Assembly: GCA_022841905.1 (NCBI GenBank) | Contig: JALHQO010000005.1 | Span: 124,001-188,000, forward strand | Source of the DNA: Hyphomonadaceae bacterium | GTDB lineage: Bacteria > Pseudomonadota > Alphaproteobacteria > Caulobacterales > Aquidulcibacteraceae | Length of the DNA stretch: 64,000 bases | Direction: 5' to 3' | In this document: in pieces, positions 728 through 14,200 of the stretch | Numbering within the stretch: position 1 is the first letter of the stretch | Layout: each line of letters opens with the position of its first letter | Position numbers and translations under genes: made by a program | Notes under the pieces: model-generated | Told to the model about the DNA's origin: nothing | The model's input: the letters and a program-made list of their open reading frames with translations, nothing else | The model's database searches: none

Positions 728-1429
728 CTAGCGCTTATTCAAAAACCGCAGCGCGCGGTTCGTGCGCAGCAGCGTTGTCAGGATCGAGCCCAACAGGACG
801 AGCCACAGGAAGAAGGCGATGAACACGCCTTTGCCGCTATCGTTGACTGTGCCCCAACCGAGGATAGAGGCGGCGCCGGGCCCAAGTTGCGGATCGAAGA
901 TCGTCAGCAGCGCCGCGACCGTCATCCAAAACATGCGATGCGGCTTCGCCATCGGCCCGGAAAAATCCGCCGGCGCGCCCGCGCTCTTGCCGACTTCGCG
1001 CACATAGGCGGTCATCACCGCAAACACGGCTGCCGCCCAGCCAAGTGTCGCGTCGAACATGCCCGTCGCGGCCACCGCGTAGCCCGCACCGATCAGGACG
1101 AAAATATCCGCGAAACGATCCGGCACTTCATTCCAGATCGGCCCATCCGGGCCCCCTTTGCCGCCTTCGACCGCGACCATGCCGTCCATCATGTTGGCGA
1201 GCAGGCGCAGCTGGCAGAAGAGTGCGGCGCCAATGCACAGCATCACCCGGTCACCGCCGCTGGTCGCCAGCGACGTGGCGTAGAAGCACGCGCCGCCGAG
1301 CGCGGCGAACACGATGCTGGTGAACGAGATGAAGTTCGGCGTAACGCCGCTCCGCACCAGCGCGCTCGACAGCCATTGCGCCCAGCCGTGCGAACGTTGC
1401 GAGATGGGGCGGCGGTCGGCGTCAGCCAT
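728..1429 (-). CDS. CDP-alcohol phosphatidyltransferase family protein (YnbA-like)
   Basis: This is a predicted integral membrane enzyme (233 aa, several hydrophobic segments) that would transfer a phosphatidyl group from CDP-diacylglycerol to an alcohol. The CDP-alcohol motif is recognisable but altered: the first Asp is Asn (NMMDGMVAVE) and the third acidic position is also Asn (GPIWNEVPDR), while the DG pair and the last Asp remain. From memory the same pattern occurs in the YnbA-like branch. The gene overlaps the upstream small membrane gene by 8 bases and faces a CdsA-like and a PlsC-like gene. This suggests a dedicated phospholipid pathway; the alcohol acceptor is unknown. Confidence 0.8.
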   Translation of the reverse strand: MADADRRPISQRSHGWAQWLSSALVRSGVTPNFISFTSIVFAALGGACFYATSLATSGGDRVMLCIGAALFCQLRLLANMMDGMVAVEGGKGGPDGPIWNEVPDRFADIFVLIGAGYAVAATGMFDATLGWAAAVFAVMTAYVREVGKSAGAPADFSGPMAKPHRMFWMTVAALLTIFDPQLGPGAASILGWGTVNDSGKGVFIAFFLWLVLLGSILTTLLRTNRALRFLNKR

Positions 1430-1820
1430 GGTTACGTCTCCAGAGGCCCCAATTGTAGATCACCGCATACGTGGTGGACACGGTGAAGGGAAACGCGATC
1501 GTGGCCCAGATTTCCGGCGTGTCGGCAATGGTGTGCGCGGCATAGAGGATGATCAGGATCGAACCCGCCGTCATCAGCGGCGGCACGATCAGCGCCGCCA
1601 GCCGATTGAGGCGCGCGCTGAACGATTCCAGAAACTTCTTCAGCCCTAGCGTCAGCAACGCCGAGATCGTCCCCTGCACGATGCCGGCGAGCAGCATCTC
1701 GGGCTCGGAATGGTCGCGGTTTGCGAACACCGCCCAGCCGCCCATGACGATAAAGGCAAAGCCGACATGCGCGACGGTGCTGTTGGCCGCCCATTGGCGC
1801 AGCGATTGAAACGCGCTCAT
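1422..1820 (-). CDS. Small integral membrane protein of the phospholipid cluster
   Basis: The 132-residue product has about four hydrophobic segments (roughly residues 16-33, 42-60, 75-97 and 103-122) and no signal peptide. I do not recognise the family with certainty. It is first in a two-gene minus-strand operon; its stop overlaps the start of the phosphatidyltransferase gene, which implies translational coupling and a shared role in lipid metabolism, possibly as an accessory subunit or lipid transporter. The function is inferred from context only. Confidence 0.7.
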   Translation of the reverse strand: MSAFQSLRQWAANSTVAHVGFAFIVMGGWAVFANRDHSEPEMLLAGIVQGTISALLTLGLKKFLESFSARLNRLAALIVPPLMTAGSILIILYAAHTIADTPEIWATIAFPFTVSTTYAVIYNWGLWRRNHG

Positions 1821-1853
1821 TGACGCCGCTCCAGGTTGCGCGGAAATGAGGCC

Positions 1854-2840
1854 ATGAGCGGACTCACAGTCTCCGACGACGACTTCATCCTCAACATTCC
1901 AGAGCCAGTATTCCTGGGCTTCCTAGGCGTGCTGGCGCTGCTCCTGGTGGGCACCATCGCCGCGCTCATCCTGCCGCGCGCGCAGCCGGGCAAGTGGACC
2001 GACCTCGGACCGCGCATGCGCTCATGGTGGGTGATCGTGATCCTCGTCGGCGGCGCGCTTGTGCTCGGCTGGCAAGCCACGGCGATCCTATTTGCGCTCA
2101 TTTCGTTCCTCGCCCTGAAGGAATTCCTGACGCTTGCGCCGACGCGCAAGGAAGATCGGTTGATCGTGCTGCTCGCCTATCTCTCCGTGTTCGTCAACTA
2201 TGGGTTGATCTTCGCCGAGAGTCTTTTTCAAGACAGCTATCAAATCTATCTCGTCTTCCTGCCGGTTTATGGCTTTCTCATTTCGGCGGCGGCGATGGCG
2301 TGGATCGGGCGCACCGAAGGCTATTTGCCGACCGTGGGCATCATCCATTGGGGCATGGTCGTTTGCGTCTACAATATCGGCTACATCGCGTTCTTGATGC
2401 GCGTGCCCGACGCTGAAGCGCCCGCAGGCGGCGCAGGCTTGGTGTTTTTCCTAATCTTCATCACCCAGCTCAATGACGTCGCCCAATATTGCTGGGGCAA
2501 AGCGCTGGGGCGAACGAAAATCACGCCGAGCGTTTCGCCGAACAAGACGTGGGAAGGCGCCGTCGGCGGCTGGCTGACGACGGCGGTCGTGTTCTACTTT
2601 CTCGCACCGGTGTTCACGCCGCTCTCGCCTTTGCACGCGGCGATCATGGGCGTCATCGTGCCAATGGCCGGCTTCTTCGGCGACATCACCATGAGCGCGA
2701 TCAAGCGCGACCTGGGCGTCAAGGATACGTCACGGCTCATTCCCGGTCATGGCGGCGTGCTGGATCGGCTCGATAGCCTCACCTTCGCCGCGCCGGTTTA
2801 CTTCCATCTGCTCGCTTATTTCGCCATCGAGCGCTTCTGA
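1854..2840 (+). CDS. Phosphatidate cytidylyltransferase (CdsA/YnbB-like)
   Basis: The enzyme makes CDP-diacylglycerol from phosphatidate and CTP in the inner membrane. The 328-residue product has about seven or eight hydrophobic segments and a near-perfect CdsA signature at the C-terminus: SAIKRDLGVKDTS followed by PGHGGVLDRLDS. The first ATG (1854) is taken as the start; an in-frame TTG at 1836 would add six residues. The gene diverges from the phosphatidyltransferase operon and its stop overlaps the plsC start (TGATG). It is probably a second, specialised CdsA, because the housekeeping copy usually sits with uppS and dxr, which are absent here. Confidence 0.88.
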   Translation: MSGLTVSDDDFILNIPEPVFLGFLGVLALLLVGTIAALILPRAQPGKWTDLGPRMRSWWVIVILVGGALVLGWQATAILFALISFLALKEFLTLAPTRKEDRLIVLLAYLSVFVNYGLIFAESLFQDSYQIYLVFLPVYGFLISAAAMAWIGRTEGYLPTVGIIHWGMVVCVYNIGYIAFLMRVPDAEAPAGGAGLVFFLIFITQLNDVAQYCWGKALGRTKITPSVSPNKTWEGAVGGWLTTAVVFYFLAPVFTPLSPLHAAIMGVIVPMAGFFGDITMSAIKRDLGVKDTSRLIPGHGGVLDRLDSLTFAAPVYFHLLAYFAIERF

Positions 2841-3481
2841 TGCTGCAAACGATCCGTCGCTATGGCTTGATGCTGATCGTGCGCCCGATCGCGCGGCTTT
2901 TGTTCGGGCTCGATGTGATCGGCGCCGACAAGCTGCCAAAAGATGGCCCGGCAATCGTGGCGGCCAACCATAACAGCCACGTCGATACGATCGTGCTGCT
3001 CTGCCTCTTCCCCGCCAAGCTGCTGCACAAGATCAGGCCAGTCGCGGCGGCCGATCACTTCGACAAAGGCGGCTTCGGCTCGTGGTTCTCAAAAAACATT
3101 ATCGGCATCATCCCGATCAAACGCGGTGGCGCATCGCGCGGTGAGGACGTGCTACTCGCCGCCAAGGAAGCGCTGACACGCGGCGAAATCCTGGTCGTCT
3201 TCCCCGAAGGCTCGCGCGGCGAGCCGGAAGAGATGACACGCTTCAAGACTGGCGTTGCGCGCCTGGTTGAGTTTCATCCCGCCACGACGGTGACGCCGGT
3301 TTATCTGCAAGGCGCTGGCCGTTCGCTGCCGAAGGACGCGAAACTGTTGGTGCCGTTTAACACGACCGCCGTGGTCGGCGACCCGCTCACCTGGAACGGT
3401 TCGCATCACGGCTTCGTCGATGAACTCCGCGCGCGGATCGAAGCGCTAAAGGCGCAAGCGCCGCCGATGCGGTGGGAATGA
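2840..3481 (+). CDS. PlsC-family 1-acyl-sn-glycerol-3-phosphate acyltransferase
   Basis: This predicted acyltransferase would convert lysophosphatidate to phosphatidate, the substrate of the CdsA-like enzyme encoded just upstream. The 213-residue protein carries the catalytic HX4D motif (NHNSHVDT, about residue 39) and the glycerol-phosphate binding block FPEGSRG (about residue 118). A hydrophobic N-terminal segment probably associates with the membrane. The start codon overlaps the preceding stop, so the two genes are translationally coupled. Together with the divergent phosphatidyltransferase this gives acylation, CDP activation and head-group transfer in one cluster. Confidence 0.88.
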   Translation: MLQTIRRYGLMLIVRPIARLLFGLDVIGADKLPKDGPAIVAANHNSHVDTIVLLCLFPAKLLHKIRPVAAADHFDKGGFGSWFSKNIIGIIPIKRGGASRGEDVLLAAKEALTRGEILVVFPEGSRGEPEEMTRFKTGVARLVEFHPATTVTPVYLQGAGRSLPKDAKLLVPFNTTAVVGDPLTWNGSHHGFVDELRARIEALKAQAPPMRWE

Positions 3482-7075: not shown

Positions 7076-7145
7076 TAAGAGGGACTATGGACTAGGGACG
7101 AGAGGTCCCGTTCGTCCCCCGGCCCTCATCCCTCGTCCCAGCCGC
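7076..7145. repeat. Palindromic intergenic repeat running into the 3' end of the TIR gene
   Basis: Degenerate GGGACTA/GGGACGAG units (7081-7102) are mirrored by CCCTCATCCCTCGTCCC (7123-7139), forming an imperfect hairpin. The element encodes the last 17 codons of the minus-strand TIR gene, a tail absent from the related domain at 13733-14200. It appears to be an inserted or expanded repeat rather than functional protein sequence. Confidence 0.55.
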
Positions 7146-8144
7146 TCGCCCGTAGAGCGCCAGCGCGTAATAACACGGCGCGATCGAGCAATTGTACATC
7201 TGCACTTGGATGGTGAAGTTGTCGTTGTAAGCGGGCTGCACGGCGACGACGGGTTGATTGTTGGTGCTGGTATCCTGCGAGACTTGTCGCCCGGCGCTAT
7301 CGAACAACACCAAATCCAGATCGTTGCAGTCACGGTCGCAGACGCCGAGCACGCGATACTCGTAACCGACGGCGAGCTGCGCCGGGACATTCCAGCTCTG
7401 CCCTTGTGCAAGGCTGCCGCTAAACGGCTGGCCCACCAGTTGGAAACCCTGCTGCGCCGCGACGGCTTGCGCCTGCTGCAATTGCTGCAGGATGATCGCT
7501 TGCGGATCTTCGCCACCGGTCGCGGGCGGCGTCACCACGGCGCCAGTTGCGGGCTGCACTTGCGCGCTCTGCTGCGGATCGCTCGGGACCATCGAACCGA
7601 TGATTCCAAGCACGACAACTGTCGCCACCACCGCGCCGGCGACCCACACCCAAACCGGCAGGCCTTTCTTCTTCTCTGGTGCGACAGCGGCCGGCGGCGG
7701 CGGCGCTGCGCGCGGCGGCGCCGAGAACGCCGCTTGCGGCGCCGGACGCGGTTCGGCTTTGGTGAATTGAGCAACCGCATCGACAAAGCGGCGCCAGTTG
7801 GGATGATCGGCTTCGCCATTCCATGACGCGAGATTGGCGGACTGCACTTCGCCAAACCCGAACGGCGGCTGGCTCGCATCGATCATCACCGGGATGAGCA
7901 CGCCCTTATCGCGGCCCATGCGCGCTTCCTCGCGCACCCATTGCGACTTGGTCGAGTGCTCGCTCCACAACACGATCAGCGCTTTGCACTGTGTGAGCTT
8001 CTGCTCGATGTAATCGGCCCAGGTTTGGCCAGGCGGGATTTCGTTGTCCCAAAACACTTCGACGCCGGCGCTCTTCAGCCCCTGCGCGACCTGTTCGGCG
8101 CGCGCGCTATCCTCGCGCGCGTAAGACAAAAATACGTCGGCCAT
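7092..8144 (-). CDS. TIR domain - transmembrane helix - four-cysteine exported domain protein
   Basis: The 350-residue protein starts with a TIR_2-type domain (residues 1-125): FLSYARED, the FWDNEIPPGQTW loop, and SQWVREEARMG, whose Glu is the candidate NADase residue. A Pro/Ala-rich linker (131-157) leads to KKK and one transmembrane helix (161-186), so the TIR is predicted cytoplasmic. The C-terminal half (about 215-333) would be periplasmic and has Cys 269, 273, 319 and 324 in CDRDC and CSIAPC motifs, plausibly disulfides. The same domain occurs alone at 13733-14200 with identical cysteine spacing. AGGAGGGG precedes the start. A second TIR gene lies just upstream. Role unknown; receptor-like signalling or defence is an inference. 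Confidence 0.88.
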   Translation of the reverse strand: MADVFLSYAREDSARAEQVAQGLKSAGVEVFWDNEIPPGQTWADYIEQKLTQCKALIVLWSEHSTKSQWVREEARMGRDKGVLIPVMIDASQPPFGFGEVQSANLASWNGEADHPNWRRFVDAVAQFTKAEPRPAPQAAFSAPPRAAPPPPAAVAPEKKKGLPVWVWVAGAVVATVVVLGIIGSMVPSDPQQSAQVQPATGAVVTPPATGGEDPQAIILQQLQQAQAVAAQQGFQLVGQPFSGSLAQGQSWNVPAQLAVGYEYRVLGVCDRDCNDLDLVLFDSAGRQVSQDTSTNNQPVVAVQPAYNDNFTIQVQMYNCSIAPCYYALALYGRAAGTRDEGRGTNGTSRP

Positions 8145-8200: not shown

Positions 8201-9154
8201 TTACAATCCCTTGGGATTGGGGCCGTATTGGTTCGGGCCGGGCTTCGACGGGAGCACCGCGATGACTAGAACCGCCAGACCGGTCGCGATCATCAAAATG
8301 CCGCCCACAGGCATGGCCGCCGCGCTCATCATGCCGCCGACGAAGTAGGCGCCGAACACCGCCGCGACCAGCCAGCCGCTCAAGCCCACATCGTGAAAGC
8401 GGCGGCTCAAGACGCTCAGGCTCGGCGCGAGCAGCGCGATGCTGGCCGCGCCGGAGACAAACTGTGTGTTCGGCATGCTGGTGTAAGAATTGAAACCGCT
8501 AGTGGCGCCATCGAGCACATAGGCGACGACCTGCACCGCCAGATTGAACGCGACCCACCACCAATATTCTGCGCGCCGCGCCCGGCCCTTGCCGTCGACG
8601 AAGAGACGAAAACATTTCTTGATATAGCAGAGCGGGGAAAGCGTCTCGACGTCGCCTGTAGCCTGCGGCTGCACTTGCGGACGCGGCGGCGTGTAGGCTG
8701 GCGCGGCGGCAGGCGGCGGCGTGTAGGCAGACGCAGCAGCGGCTTGCGGCGCCACTGCGCCGGCGCCATTCACGGCGCTGAACACGGCTTGGCTGAAGCG
8801 CTTCCAATCGGCGCTGTTGGGATCGCCGGTCCAGCTTGCGAGATTGGCCGCCTGCACTTCGCCAAACCCGAACGGCGCCGGCGAGCCATCGATCATCACC
8901 GGGATCAGCTTGGCTTTGTCGCGCCCCATGCGTGCTTCTTCGCGCACCCATTGCGAGCGCGTCGAGTGCGCGCTCCACAACACGATCACGGCTTTGCAGG
9001 CGGAGAGCTTGCCTTCGATATAATCGGCCCAAGTCTGACCGGGCGGGATTTCGTTGTCCCAGAAAACGTCGAGCCCCAACGCTTCCAGCCCCTGCGCAAT
9101 GCGCTCAGCCGGCGCCTGATCTTCGCGGGCGTACGAAATGAAAACGTCGGCCAT
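8201..9154 (-). CDS. TIR domain - DUF805 membrane protein
   Basis: The 317-residue product has an N-terminal TIR domain (1-125) very similar to the neighbouring TIR protein (shared FWDNEIPPGQTWADYIE and SQWVREEARMGRDK). A Pro/Ala linker (131-168) follows, then a DUF805 domain (about 173-317). The DUF805 part shows the GRARRAEYWWW entry motif, LSRRFHDVGLSGW and the terminal NQYGPNPKG, with about four transmembrane helices. The ATG at 9154 follows GGGGAA; a TTG at 9160 is less likely. The two TIR genes are tandem paralogues with different membrane modules, 56 bases apart, and probably form one operon. The biochemical role is not known. Confidence 0.88.
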   Translation of the reverse strand: MADVFISYAREDQAPAERIAQGLEALGLDVFWDNEIPPGQTWADYIEGKLSACKAVIVLWSAHSTRSQWVREEARMGRDKAKLIPVMIDGSPAPFGFGEVQAANLASWTGDPNSADWKRFSQAVFSAVNGAGAVAPQAAAASAYTPPPAAAPAYTPPRPQVQPQATGDVETLSPLCYIKKCFRLFVDGKGRARRAEYWWWVAFNLAVQVVAYVLDGATSGFNSYTSMPNTQFVSGAASIALLAPSLSVLSRRFHDVGLSGWLVAAVFGAYFVGGMMSAAAMPVGGILMIATGLAVLVIAVLPSKPGPNQYGPNPKGL

Positions 9155-12890: not shown

Positions 12891-13745
12891 ATGTTGCTCC
12901 TCACCGCCCTCGGCACGCTGACCCAAATCCGCGCCGCCGCCGATGAACTCGATCGCCACGATCCCTCGCCTGCCGACGCGGTAAGCTGGTTCGAGGAGAA
13001 GCCAGGCAAATTCCGCATCGAAGTCTATGTGCCGACTAAGCAGGACGCAGCGTCGGTCGAAGCCATCGTCGGCGCGGCCGCGCCCGAACTGCACATGAAG
13101 CAGAAGAAGGTGAAAACCGCCGATTGGGTGGCGATGTCGCTTGAGGGCCTGCCCGCCGTGCGCGCCGGACGCTTCATGGTGGCGGGCGCGCATGCGCTGG
13201 CGAACGACGCGAGCGGGCGAAAGAAAATCTGGATCGAAGCCAGCGAAGCCTTCGGCACCGGCCATCACGGCACGACCTGGGGCTGCTTGATGGCGCTTGA
13301 AGGCGTACTGCGGCAGCGGCGCGTGACGCGCGTTCTTGATGTCGGCGCGGGCTCCGGCGTGCTGGCAATCGCGGCGGCGAAGAGCGGCGCGGAGGCGTTA
13401 GCGATCGAGATCGACACGCGCGCAGCAGCGATTGCGGAAATCAACGTGCGCCAAAACAAGCTCGGCCCGCGCGTGCGCGTGATCGCCGGCGACGGCGCGC
13501 GCTACATTGCGGGCCAACAGTTCGATCTAGTGTTCGCGAACATTCTGATGCGACCACTGATCAAGCTCGCGCCGAAACTCGTGCGTGCGCTTGAGCCCGG
13601 TGGAACGCTGGTGCTCTCAGGCCTGCTGCAAACGCAAGCGCCGCTGGTGCGCGAGGCCTACGCCAATCGCGGGCTCATCCTTGAGCGGCAGATTCCGAAA
13701 GAAGCGTGGATGACGCTTGTGTGGCGGAAGCCTCAGCGGCTGTAG
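12891..13745 (+). CDS. prmA: Ribosomal protein L11 methyltransferase
   Basis: PrmA trimethylates ribosomal protein L11 using S-adenosylmethionine. The 284-residue product has an N-terminal substrate-binding half (about 1-105) and a Rossmann methyltransferase half with the SAM motif DVGAGSGVLAIAAAK (about 150-164), FGTGHHGTT just before it, and the FANIL motif (about 220). ATG at 12891 opens directly with the expected N-terminus. The 3' end overlaps the convergent four-cysteine gene by 13 bases. Confidence 0.9.
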   Translation: MLLLTALGTLTQIRAAADELDRHDPSPADAVSWFEEKPGKFRIEVYVPTKQDAASVEAIVGAAAPELHMKQKKVKTADWVAMSLEGLPAVRAGRFMVAGAHALANDASGRKKIWIEASEAFGTGHHGTTWGCLMALEGVLRQRRVTRVLDVGAGSGVLAIAAAKSGAEALAIEIDTRAAAIAEINVRQNKLGPRVRVIAGDGARYIAGQQFDLVFANILMRPLIKLAPKLVRALEPGGTLVLSGLLQTQAPLVREAYANRGLILERQIPKEAWMTLVWRKPQRL

Positions 13746-14200
13746 ACGTTGAACGCATACCAGCACGGCGCGCTGCTGCAGCGGCTCATGACGGCCTCGA
13801 CATCGTAATTGCCGGTCACTGCGGGGCGGACATGGATGATCGGAACGGCGTCATCCAAGACGTCCTGGGCGACGAGTTGATTGCCGGCGGCATAGAGACG
13901 GAGATCGAAATCACCGCAGCGTTCATCGCAGACGCCGAGGATGCGATAGTCCTGGCCGGCGCGGAGCATGATGGTGTGCCGGCGCGCGCGGCGCTCGTTT
14001 AAGCCGCCCGCGAACGGGCCAGCGGCGCGCTGGTAGCCATCGTCGCGCAACAGAGCTTCACCGCGCGAGAGCTTCTGAGCCAGCTCGCGTGCGAACGGGT
14101 CCGGCACCTGCGCCGCGGCGGGTCCCGCCAGCAGCGCCAGCGCGGCGAAAGCCGCAAACGCCCGTTTCAACCCAAGCACCAAAGCTACTCCAGCGGCCAA
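13733..14200 (-). CDS. Secreted four-cysteine domain protein, paralogue of the TIR protein exported domain
   Basis: The 155-residue product has a signal peptide (about residues 1-30, ending PAAAQ) and a single mature domain. Cys 91, 95, 141 and 146 lie in LGVCDERC and CSSAPC motifs. Their spacing (4, 46, 5) is identical to that of the C-terminal domain of the TIR protein at 7092-8144, and flanking residues such as YRILGVCD and SAPC-Y/WYA also match. The domain resembles bacterial pre-peptidase-like beta sandwiches, but I cannot name it. It ends at YSR, without the repeat-derived tail seen in the TIR copy. Role unknown. Confidence 0.8.
   Translation of the reverse strand: MAAGVALVLGLKRAFAAFAALALLAGPAAAQVPDPFARELAQKLSRGEALLRDDGYQRAAGPFAGGLNERRARRHTIMLRAGQDYRILGVCDERCGDFDLRLYAAGNQLVAQDVLDDAVPIIHVRPAVTGNYDVEAVMSRCSSAPCWYAFNVYSR

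Follow-up and report, generated by a model that had tools for sequence, protein, structure and literature searches.

In the window, that is, the whole 64,000-nucleotide stretch of DNA that was analysed, one gene encodes a protein in which a TIR_2 domain, a Pro-rich linker, a KKK triplet, a single helix and a C-terminal four-Cys domain follow each other in this order (Table 1). The TIR_2 match (PF13676) covers residues 4–108 with an E-value of 1.8e-24 and 87 bits against the curated Pfam cut-off of 28. Hydropathy analysis revealed one hydrophobic stretch at residues 164–182, and the AlphaFold model placed a helix at residues 165–185. Outside the TIR, cysteines occur only at positions 269, 273, 319 and 324, forming a CxxxC and a CxxxxC pair. 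The TIR, the KKK, the single helix and both cysteine pairs had been pointed out in a first-pass annotation, and all proved correct when the ORF, the Pfam match and the hydropathy were re-checked. The full-length model had a pTM of 0.41, thus it does not predict the relative placement of the domains. The last 15 residues (336–350) are private to the window gene and are absent from its 21 aligned relatives; the ectodomain of the nearest relative is 100% identical and ends at residue 336. The corresponding 3′ extension (7092–7139) reads into the inverted repeat GGGACGAG...CTCGTCCC (7095–7102 and 7132–7139), which at this convergent gene end is possibly a hairpin or a small repeat insertion.

Table 1. 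Features of the TIR locus in the window
Feature	Position	Strand	Basis
TIR-TM-ectodomain protein, CDS	7092..8144	minus	350 aa, ATG start; ORF list, orthologues, purifying selection
TIR domain, residues 1–128	7761..8144	minus	Pfam TIR_2; alignment to PdTIR 3h16 and others; Foldseek
Codon of candidate catalytic Glu E73	7926–7928	minus	invariant in 22/22 orthologues
KKK, residues 158–160, putative cytoplasmic-side charges	7665..7673	minus	sequence; flank counts in 22 orthologues
Single predicted transmembrane helix, residues 164–185	7590..7655	minus	hydropathy and AlphaFold model
Predicted exported domain, residues 213–335, modelled beta jelly roll with Cys 269/273/319/324	7140..7508	minus	AlphaFold model, Foldseek, conserved Cys
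Upstream neighbour, TIR_2 + DUF805, multi-helix membrane protein	8201..9154	minus	Pfam; 56 bp before the fusion gene, same strand
Secreted stand-alone copy of the exported domain, signal peptide ...LALLAGPAAAQ	13733..14200	minus	35% identity, E 2.5e-23

The own genome contains 15 TIR_2 matches, 13 of them above the cut-off. Foldseek aligned the modelled TIR of the fusion with SARM1, AbTir, PdTIR, TcpB/BtpA and Hydra TRR-2, the last being among the best matches. AbTir and SARM1 are TIRs that cleave NAD+, and we take the Glu of the W-x-x-x-E motif to be the catalytic residue in such enzymes (cf. the title of 7s2z, the E100A mutant of RUN1). This Glu, in helix C, is present here as well: the sequence WVREE, in which a candidate Glu had been proposed, occupies residues 69–73, and the candidate is its second Glu, E73. 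W69 and E73 were invariant in all 22 fusion sequences, and in phmmer alignments W69-x-x-x-E73 coincided with the corresponding motif in PdTIR (3h16) and RPV1 (5ku7). An NADase activity of the TIR with E73 as the candidate residue is plausible, an invariant Glu among related sequences being in itself weak evidence of catalysis.

According to the positive-inside rule, the basic flank of a membrane helix lies on the cytoplasmic side. Summed over the 22 sequences, the 12-residue flank preceding the helix includes 48 K/R and 12 D/E, while the flank of the same length after it includes 6 K/R and 25 D/E, and this excess of basic residues before the helix suggests, by the rule, that the TIR is cytoplasmic. 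The relatives of the ectodomain point in the same direction. Our export-signal rule was passed by 50 of 55 non-TIR relatives (76 scanned loci minus 21 TIR fusions; the 50 include L095 and L108, TIR fusions truncated at contig ends, in which the helix was taken as a signal) compared with 70 of 729 control ORFs, which form a rough baseline, as they were ORFs of 150–260 codons in any frame of loci L113–L165, mostly not genes, and fewer start codons were allowed for each than for the long ORFs among the relatives. The five relatives failing the rule were L115, L122, L152, L161 and L163. Many signal peptides of the non-TIR relatives end in ...AQ, and some carry a lipobox-like AAC. Together with the secreted copy in the window, these data supported the proposed orientation with the TIR inside and the C-terminal half outside. 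By prediction, the two domains thus lie on opposite sides of the membrane, the TIR probably in the cytoplasm and the C-terminal domain probably in the periplasm, and the reversed topology is disfavoured by both the charge bias and the export signals. The conserved cysteines and the likely location of the external domain suggest that it contains disulphides.

The C-terminal half of the window protein matched no significant Pfam family, and no significant match was obtained with 18 ectodomain relatives either, the best being PPC (PF04151) with an E-value of 0.11 in one of the 18, so the ectodomain was assigned neither to PF04151, which the window protein did not match, nor to any other known Pfam family. 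A sequence search of PDB chains gave no relative of the ectodomain; its one match (E 1.9) is a chance hit. A structure-model search of this domain, suggested in the first-pass annotation, was carried out by Foldseek on an AlphaFold model built from a 77-row alignment (pLDDT 96.6, pTM 0.88), which consists of one helix and eight strands. The C-terminal jelly roll of Tk-SP (3afg) was matched with an E-value of 2.7e-6 and a probability of 1.00, and the TM-scores by query length were 0.67 for 3afg and 0.67–0.70 over the Tk-SP chains. Further matches included KP-43 (1wmd), the collagen-binding domain of ColH (3jqw) and p24 GOLD domains, and DeCLIC (6v4s) was at rank 47 of the list. Because of the matches to Tk-SP, KP-43, ColH and p24 GOLD, the ectodomain is modelled as a PPC/GOLD-like (Tk-SP-type) beta jelly roll. 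It would share this fold with PPC (PF04151), the C-terminal jelly rolls of Tk-SP and KP-43, the DeCLIC lobes and GOLD, but it differs from the PPC/Tk-SP group in a signature of its own with two Cys pairs, and in the lack of a significant Pfam match.

The signature reads CDxxCxDxD ... D ... P ... C....C. In the 77-row alignment the four Cys were present in all rows, as were D58, D60, D65 and D79, while D63 was found in 76 and D70 in 70 rows; the motif used for gathering the alignment contained the first Cys pair with its Asp residues, which makes their counts partly circular, whereas the second Cys pair, D70, D79 and P86 were outside that motif. The motif scan, run on named genomes, yielded 125 confirmed stretches, from which 76 loci were taken, 21 with TIR fusions and 55 others. 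The named relatives belong mostly to Hyphomonadaceae, Caulobacterales or Alphaproteobacteria MAGs, and the family was also found in cyanobacteria, beta- and gammaproteobacteria, Bacteroidota, Gemmatimonadetes, Acidobacteria, Myxococcota and others (L113–L165). Most relatives are small secreted proteins with no known function. In other phyla, the ectodomain occurs beside PPC domains that score above the Pfam cut-off in L123, L137, L138 and L160 and just below it in L154, and in L118 it occurs with a trypsin-like protease. One protein of a Candidatus Latescibacterota MAG (L138:5249-7915) combines the jelly roll with three PPC stretches and a caspase domain. A phage-borne origin of the domain was considered and rejected, as none of ten motif matches in viral contigs was confirmed. 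Judging from these sequences, the external domain defines an apparently exported four-Cys jelly-roll family that has no Pfam match and extends over many phyla. Passages of PMC12664993 describe the periplasmic lobes of DeCLIC as jelly rolls with Ca2+ sites, whose nearest folds include Tk-SP and collagenase, and passages of PMC3599501 state that the Tk-SP jelly roll binds two Ca2+ and that maximal stability needs Ca2+. The conserved Asp residues raise the hypothesis that the ectodomain may bind Ca2+ as well. For the secreted copy of the window, this idea is weakened by R and A at the acidic positions 60 and 70, respectively.

The distribution of the fusion was surveyed in 299 genomes of the order with a profile built from 22 full-length fusions (E 1e-45). 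Matches were obtained in 43 genomes, 30 of which cover the whole protein, while 13 match only part of the profile and were excluded from the 30. The whole-length fusion was present in 26 of the 30 genomes of the genus and in four genomes (G011, G012, G013 and G025) belonging to two other genera of the same family. G041 and G010 contained pieces of the fusion near contig ends, G050 gave a match of the TIR part only, and no fusion match was obtained at this E-value in G038 and G053. At the class level, the ectodomain was found in two of 289 genomes, the own genome included; the jelly-roll version of the TIR-helix protein is taxonomically narrow. The dN/dS ratios of the window gene versus 11 orthologues, which are rough owing to nearly saturated synonymous sites in the more distant pairs, were 0.03–0.20 in the TIR and 0.00–0.39 in the ectodomain, while those of the two linkers reached 1.1 and 1.3. 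With the nearest pair set aside, identity in the remaining ten was 48–88% in the ectodomain versus 76–92% in the TIR, showing that the ectodomain evolves faster. Both folded domains are under purifying selection and the linkers are looser, which is the pattern expected of two working domains on a tether. A chance ORF is ruled out by the whole-length orthologues and by the dN/dS below 0.4 in both folded domains, and the product of the gene is a genuine conserved bacterial membrane protein.

The surroundings of the gene are conserved as well. The fetched loci largely retain the gene order fumC, [fusion], TIR-DUF805, ..., pcrA/uvrD-like helicase, prmA-like gene, secreted copy, aminopeptidase-like gene; of these neighbours, only fumC reaches its family cut-off. 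The TIR-DUF805 gene lies directly upstream of the fusion on the same strand with a gap of 27–93 bp in 19 of 22 fusion loci (the window and 18 of 21 fetched loci; the gap of L169 is approximate). Three fusions (L051, L174 and L179) have no such partner, and in the draft genome G050 (L209) a TIR-DUF805 gene stands in front of fumC where the TIR-ectodomain gene is absent, thus an obligate pairing is contradicted. Within a genome, the TIRs of the fusion and of TIR-DUF805 are 59–75% identical (11 pairs; 72% in the window). In a TIR tree that carries no support values, they form separate clades within the genus, so the pair goes back to a tandem duplication no younger than the genus. In the same tree, L050 and L054, fusion TIRs from two other genera, fall beside the TIR-DUF805 clade rather than with the fusion TIRs of the genus, which leaves the full-length match and synteny as the basis for orthology across genera. 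In two genomes, a third TIR gene, with a TIR and a MORN repeat, is located between the fusion and fumC (L176:168-1403 and L177:9859-11094; the Pfam run covers L176 only). Promoter and terminator signals searched locally around the gene pair were not above those in shuffles. The secreted copy sits 5.6 kb from the fusion gene, and these are the only two copies of the ectodomain in the own genome at E-values up to 1. An ectodomain match between prmA and the peptidase gene was found in all 21 fetched loci spanning this interval, a count that is not an unbiased rate, as the loci had been picked for prior ectodomain matches. At 728–3481, the window also contains a phospholipid-type cluster with CDP-alcohol phosphatidyltransferase-like, phosphatidate cytidylyltransferase-like and acylglycerol-phosphate acyltransferase-like genes, all scoring below the cut-offs.

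Genomes of the same order and class encode further proteins in which a TIR is followed by a linker containing basic residues and by a single helix, with other domains at the C-terminus. These were FGE-sulfatase in L203 (3.1e-45) and L258 (4.1e-49), Sel1 in L200 (1.5e-41), MORN repeats in L176 of the genus (8.8e-6) and L214 of the class sample (2.1e-8), and TPR in L232, L237 and L257, while others had no assigned domain. By resemblance to the Pfam-matched L203 and L258, three further proteins of the order (L204, L206 and L208) would also be of the TIR–one helix–FGE-sulfatase type. One helix with at least 80 residues after it was found in 15 of the 28 order loci with the best TIR_2 matches, the own genome excluded (seven of the 15 run off the end of the fetched stretch and one, L249, is an orthologue of the window fusion), and in 5 of 17 loci of the class sample; a few single helices are possibly false calls (in the class set e.g. 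that of L223). L046, an SH3 protein encoded by the own genome, was not counted, because it has no helix above the threshold. In L232, L233, L237 and L257, the helix is followed by a region starting with (S/A)(I/V)AVLPF and continuing with ..EYFADG/SDG; three of these four carry the TPR repeats, and L237 has a FlgO match below the cut-off. Elsewhere, this chassis presumably carries cyclase or winged-helix outputs, and if so, the TIR would be an exchangeable output domain. Since the layout of TIR, one helix and a long C-terminal part is frequent in the order, it represents a class rather than a curiosity, and the window protein is, as far as the sequences indicate, one member of this wider membrane-TIR class with exchangeable C-terminal parts. 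Such a variety of C-terminal domains is as expected of receptors.

Passages of PMC7075850 describe diverse architectures among the bacterial TIR groups, and also the animal Toll, Toll-like and IL-1 receptors, with which the window protein has in common a single span and, by prediction, a cytoplasmic TIR and an external domain. The order is reversed here, with the TIR at the N-terminus and the external domain at the C-terminus (type II topology), neither a leucine-rich repeat nor an Ig domain was found in the window protein, and homology extends only through the TIR fold. Thus, the protein does not fall into the Toll/IL-1 receptor family, in which an N-terminal LRR or Ig region is followed by a helix and a C-terminal TIR, and the Toll-receptor layout put forward in the first-pass annotation held as an analogy, in the single span and the TIR opposed to an external domain, but not in domain order or leucine-rich repeats. 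In this analogous sense, the window protein appears to be roughly the bacterial counterpart of that layout. With the NAD-cleaving TIRs (SARM1, AbTir and plant TIRs) and PdTIR it shares the TIR fold and the W-x-x-x-E motif, and it differs from them in being a predicted membrane-anchored protein with a periplasmic-type domain. Sections of PMC10907252 report TIRs together with DGR-diversified CLec/FGE sensors in multicellular bacteria, where the TIR effector and the variable sensor are in one protein or locus, an arrangement comparable to the TIR-helix-FGE-sulfatase relatives. The DGR systems use STAND or MoxR NTPases, none of which was seen at the window locus, and an FGE domain is absent from the window protein. 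Literature searches, covering few subscription journals, found no description of this TIR-helix-jelly-roll protein, no paper joining DUF805 or a pre-peptidase C-terminal domain with a TIR domain, and no paper on a TIR domain in Caulobacterales with a transmembrane part; the protein was described neither in the passages of the papers cited in this text nor in those of PMC7159879 and PMC8195603. As most subscription journals were outside the search, this absence is weak evidence. The earlier statement that this external domain was unknown from described bacterial TIR systems is in line with these searches, but the layout itself is not unique, as the 15 of 28 order loci show.

Considering these results, we propose, with a probability of about one half (0.5), that the protein is a one-component inner-membrane receptor whose periplasmic domain controls the clustering of the TIR, probably with an NAD-derived output. 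The periplasmic domain would bind a ligand, Ca2+ or another copy of itself, e.g. the secreted stand-alone copy. Such binding would determine how the TIR domains are spaced or clustered below the membrane, either by themselves or in combination with the TIR of the DUF805 partner. Once clustered, they would most likely function as an NAD+-consuming enzyme that yields a nucleotide signal, and with lower probability as a bare scaffold. The architecture, the fold, the conservation, the locus and the frequent pairing come directly from the computations, and from these we infer the topology in the cell, the ligand, the clustering, the enzyme activity, the partner and the role. A single helix connecting two domains is no proof that a signal crosses the membrane, and the external domain might only be an anchor.

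The main rival to the receptor, which we consider rather unlikely, is that the TIR is a non-enzymatic assembly module. The two TIR membrane proteins, perhaps with other TIR proteins of the cell, would assemble into a scaffold or cluster at the inner membrane, organised or anchored in the periplasm by the jelly roll. The GOLD-like fold is used for oligomerisation of single-pass proteins, and the Foldseek matches of the ectodomain agree with such a use, as does the presence of two neighbouring TIR proteins, whose TIRs are 72% identical and yet belong to separate clades within the genus, with no effector called among ten neighbours. Against a purely structural TIR stand the invariance of W69 and E73 of the NADase motif in 22/22 sequences and the structural matches to AbTir and SARM1.

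Bacterial TIRs are classical defence effectors, and in an envelope-triggered abortive infection, phage adsorption or DNA entry would disturb the periplasmic domain and make the TIR deplete NAD+. The PADLOC models of TIR-SAVED and ThsB do match the window protein; however, the matches are confined to the TIR region, so the likeness to Thoeris ThsB and type III ThcB, TIR-SAVED and retron-TIR is limited to a TIR_2-type domain in common. Thoeris type III ThcB4 scored 39 bits against a cut-off of 220, the NCBIfam scores were far below their cut-offs, and among the ten neighbours PADLOC (E 1e-10) found no partner effector, only generic UvrD-type helicase and methyltransferase matches, thus the protein was not assigned to any of the Thoeris or PADLOC TIR systems. 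No relative was confirmed in viral contigs. The gene occupies one housekeeping position in most genomes of the genus (26/30), unlike the patchy pattern of defence islands, and this presence together with the kept synteny spoke against a defence-island gene as the main reading. A defence role is therefore possible but improbable, and envelope sensing or envelope homeostasis is the more likely role. Least probable of all is that the jelly roll is a captured secreted-protein domain that stabilises or tethers without sensing, a reading in line with the Ca2+-dependent maximal stability of the two-Ca2+ Tk-SP jelly roll (PMC3599501, in the passages cited above) and with the many small secreted relatives of no known function, but one that fits poorly with an ectodomain that changes faster than the TIR and is nonetheless under purifying selection, and with the quite different C-terminal domains of the sister proteins, which agree better with sensing than with stabilising.

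The receptor reading can be extended to the order as a whole, although in its full form we regard this extension as speculative and unlikely. Alphaproteobacteria of the order would run a class of Toll-like one-component receptors, in which a TIR-linker-helix cassette is combined with exchangeable periplasmic sensors (jelly roll, FGE-sulfatase, Sel1, TPR and MORN), often together with a TIR-DUF805 partner, and a TIR-made NAD derivative would serve as an everyday second messenger of the envelope, not as an antiphage weapon.

Bacterial TIR domains are chiefly known from effectors of cytoplasmic defence and from proteins that are delivered to host cells, and transmembrane TIR signalling is usually regarded as an animal invention. 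The finding exposes an exported domain family that has no Pfam model and is present in many phyla, and G050 offers a natural case for testing dependence. The fusion itself is a tractable system for studying the functions of TIRs other than cell killing. With a conserved TIR at a housekeeping locus that is joined to a periplasmic-type domain through a membrane helix, transmembrane TIR signalling would be shown to have arisen in bacteria as well.
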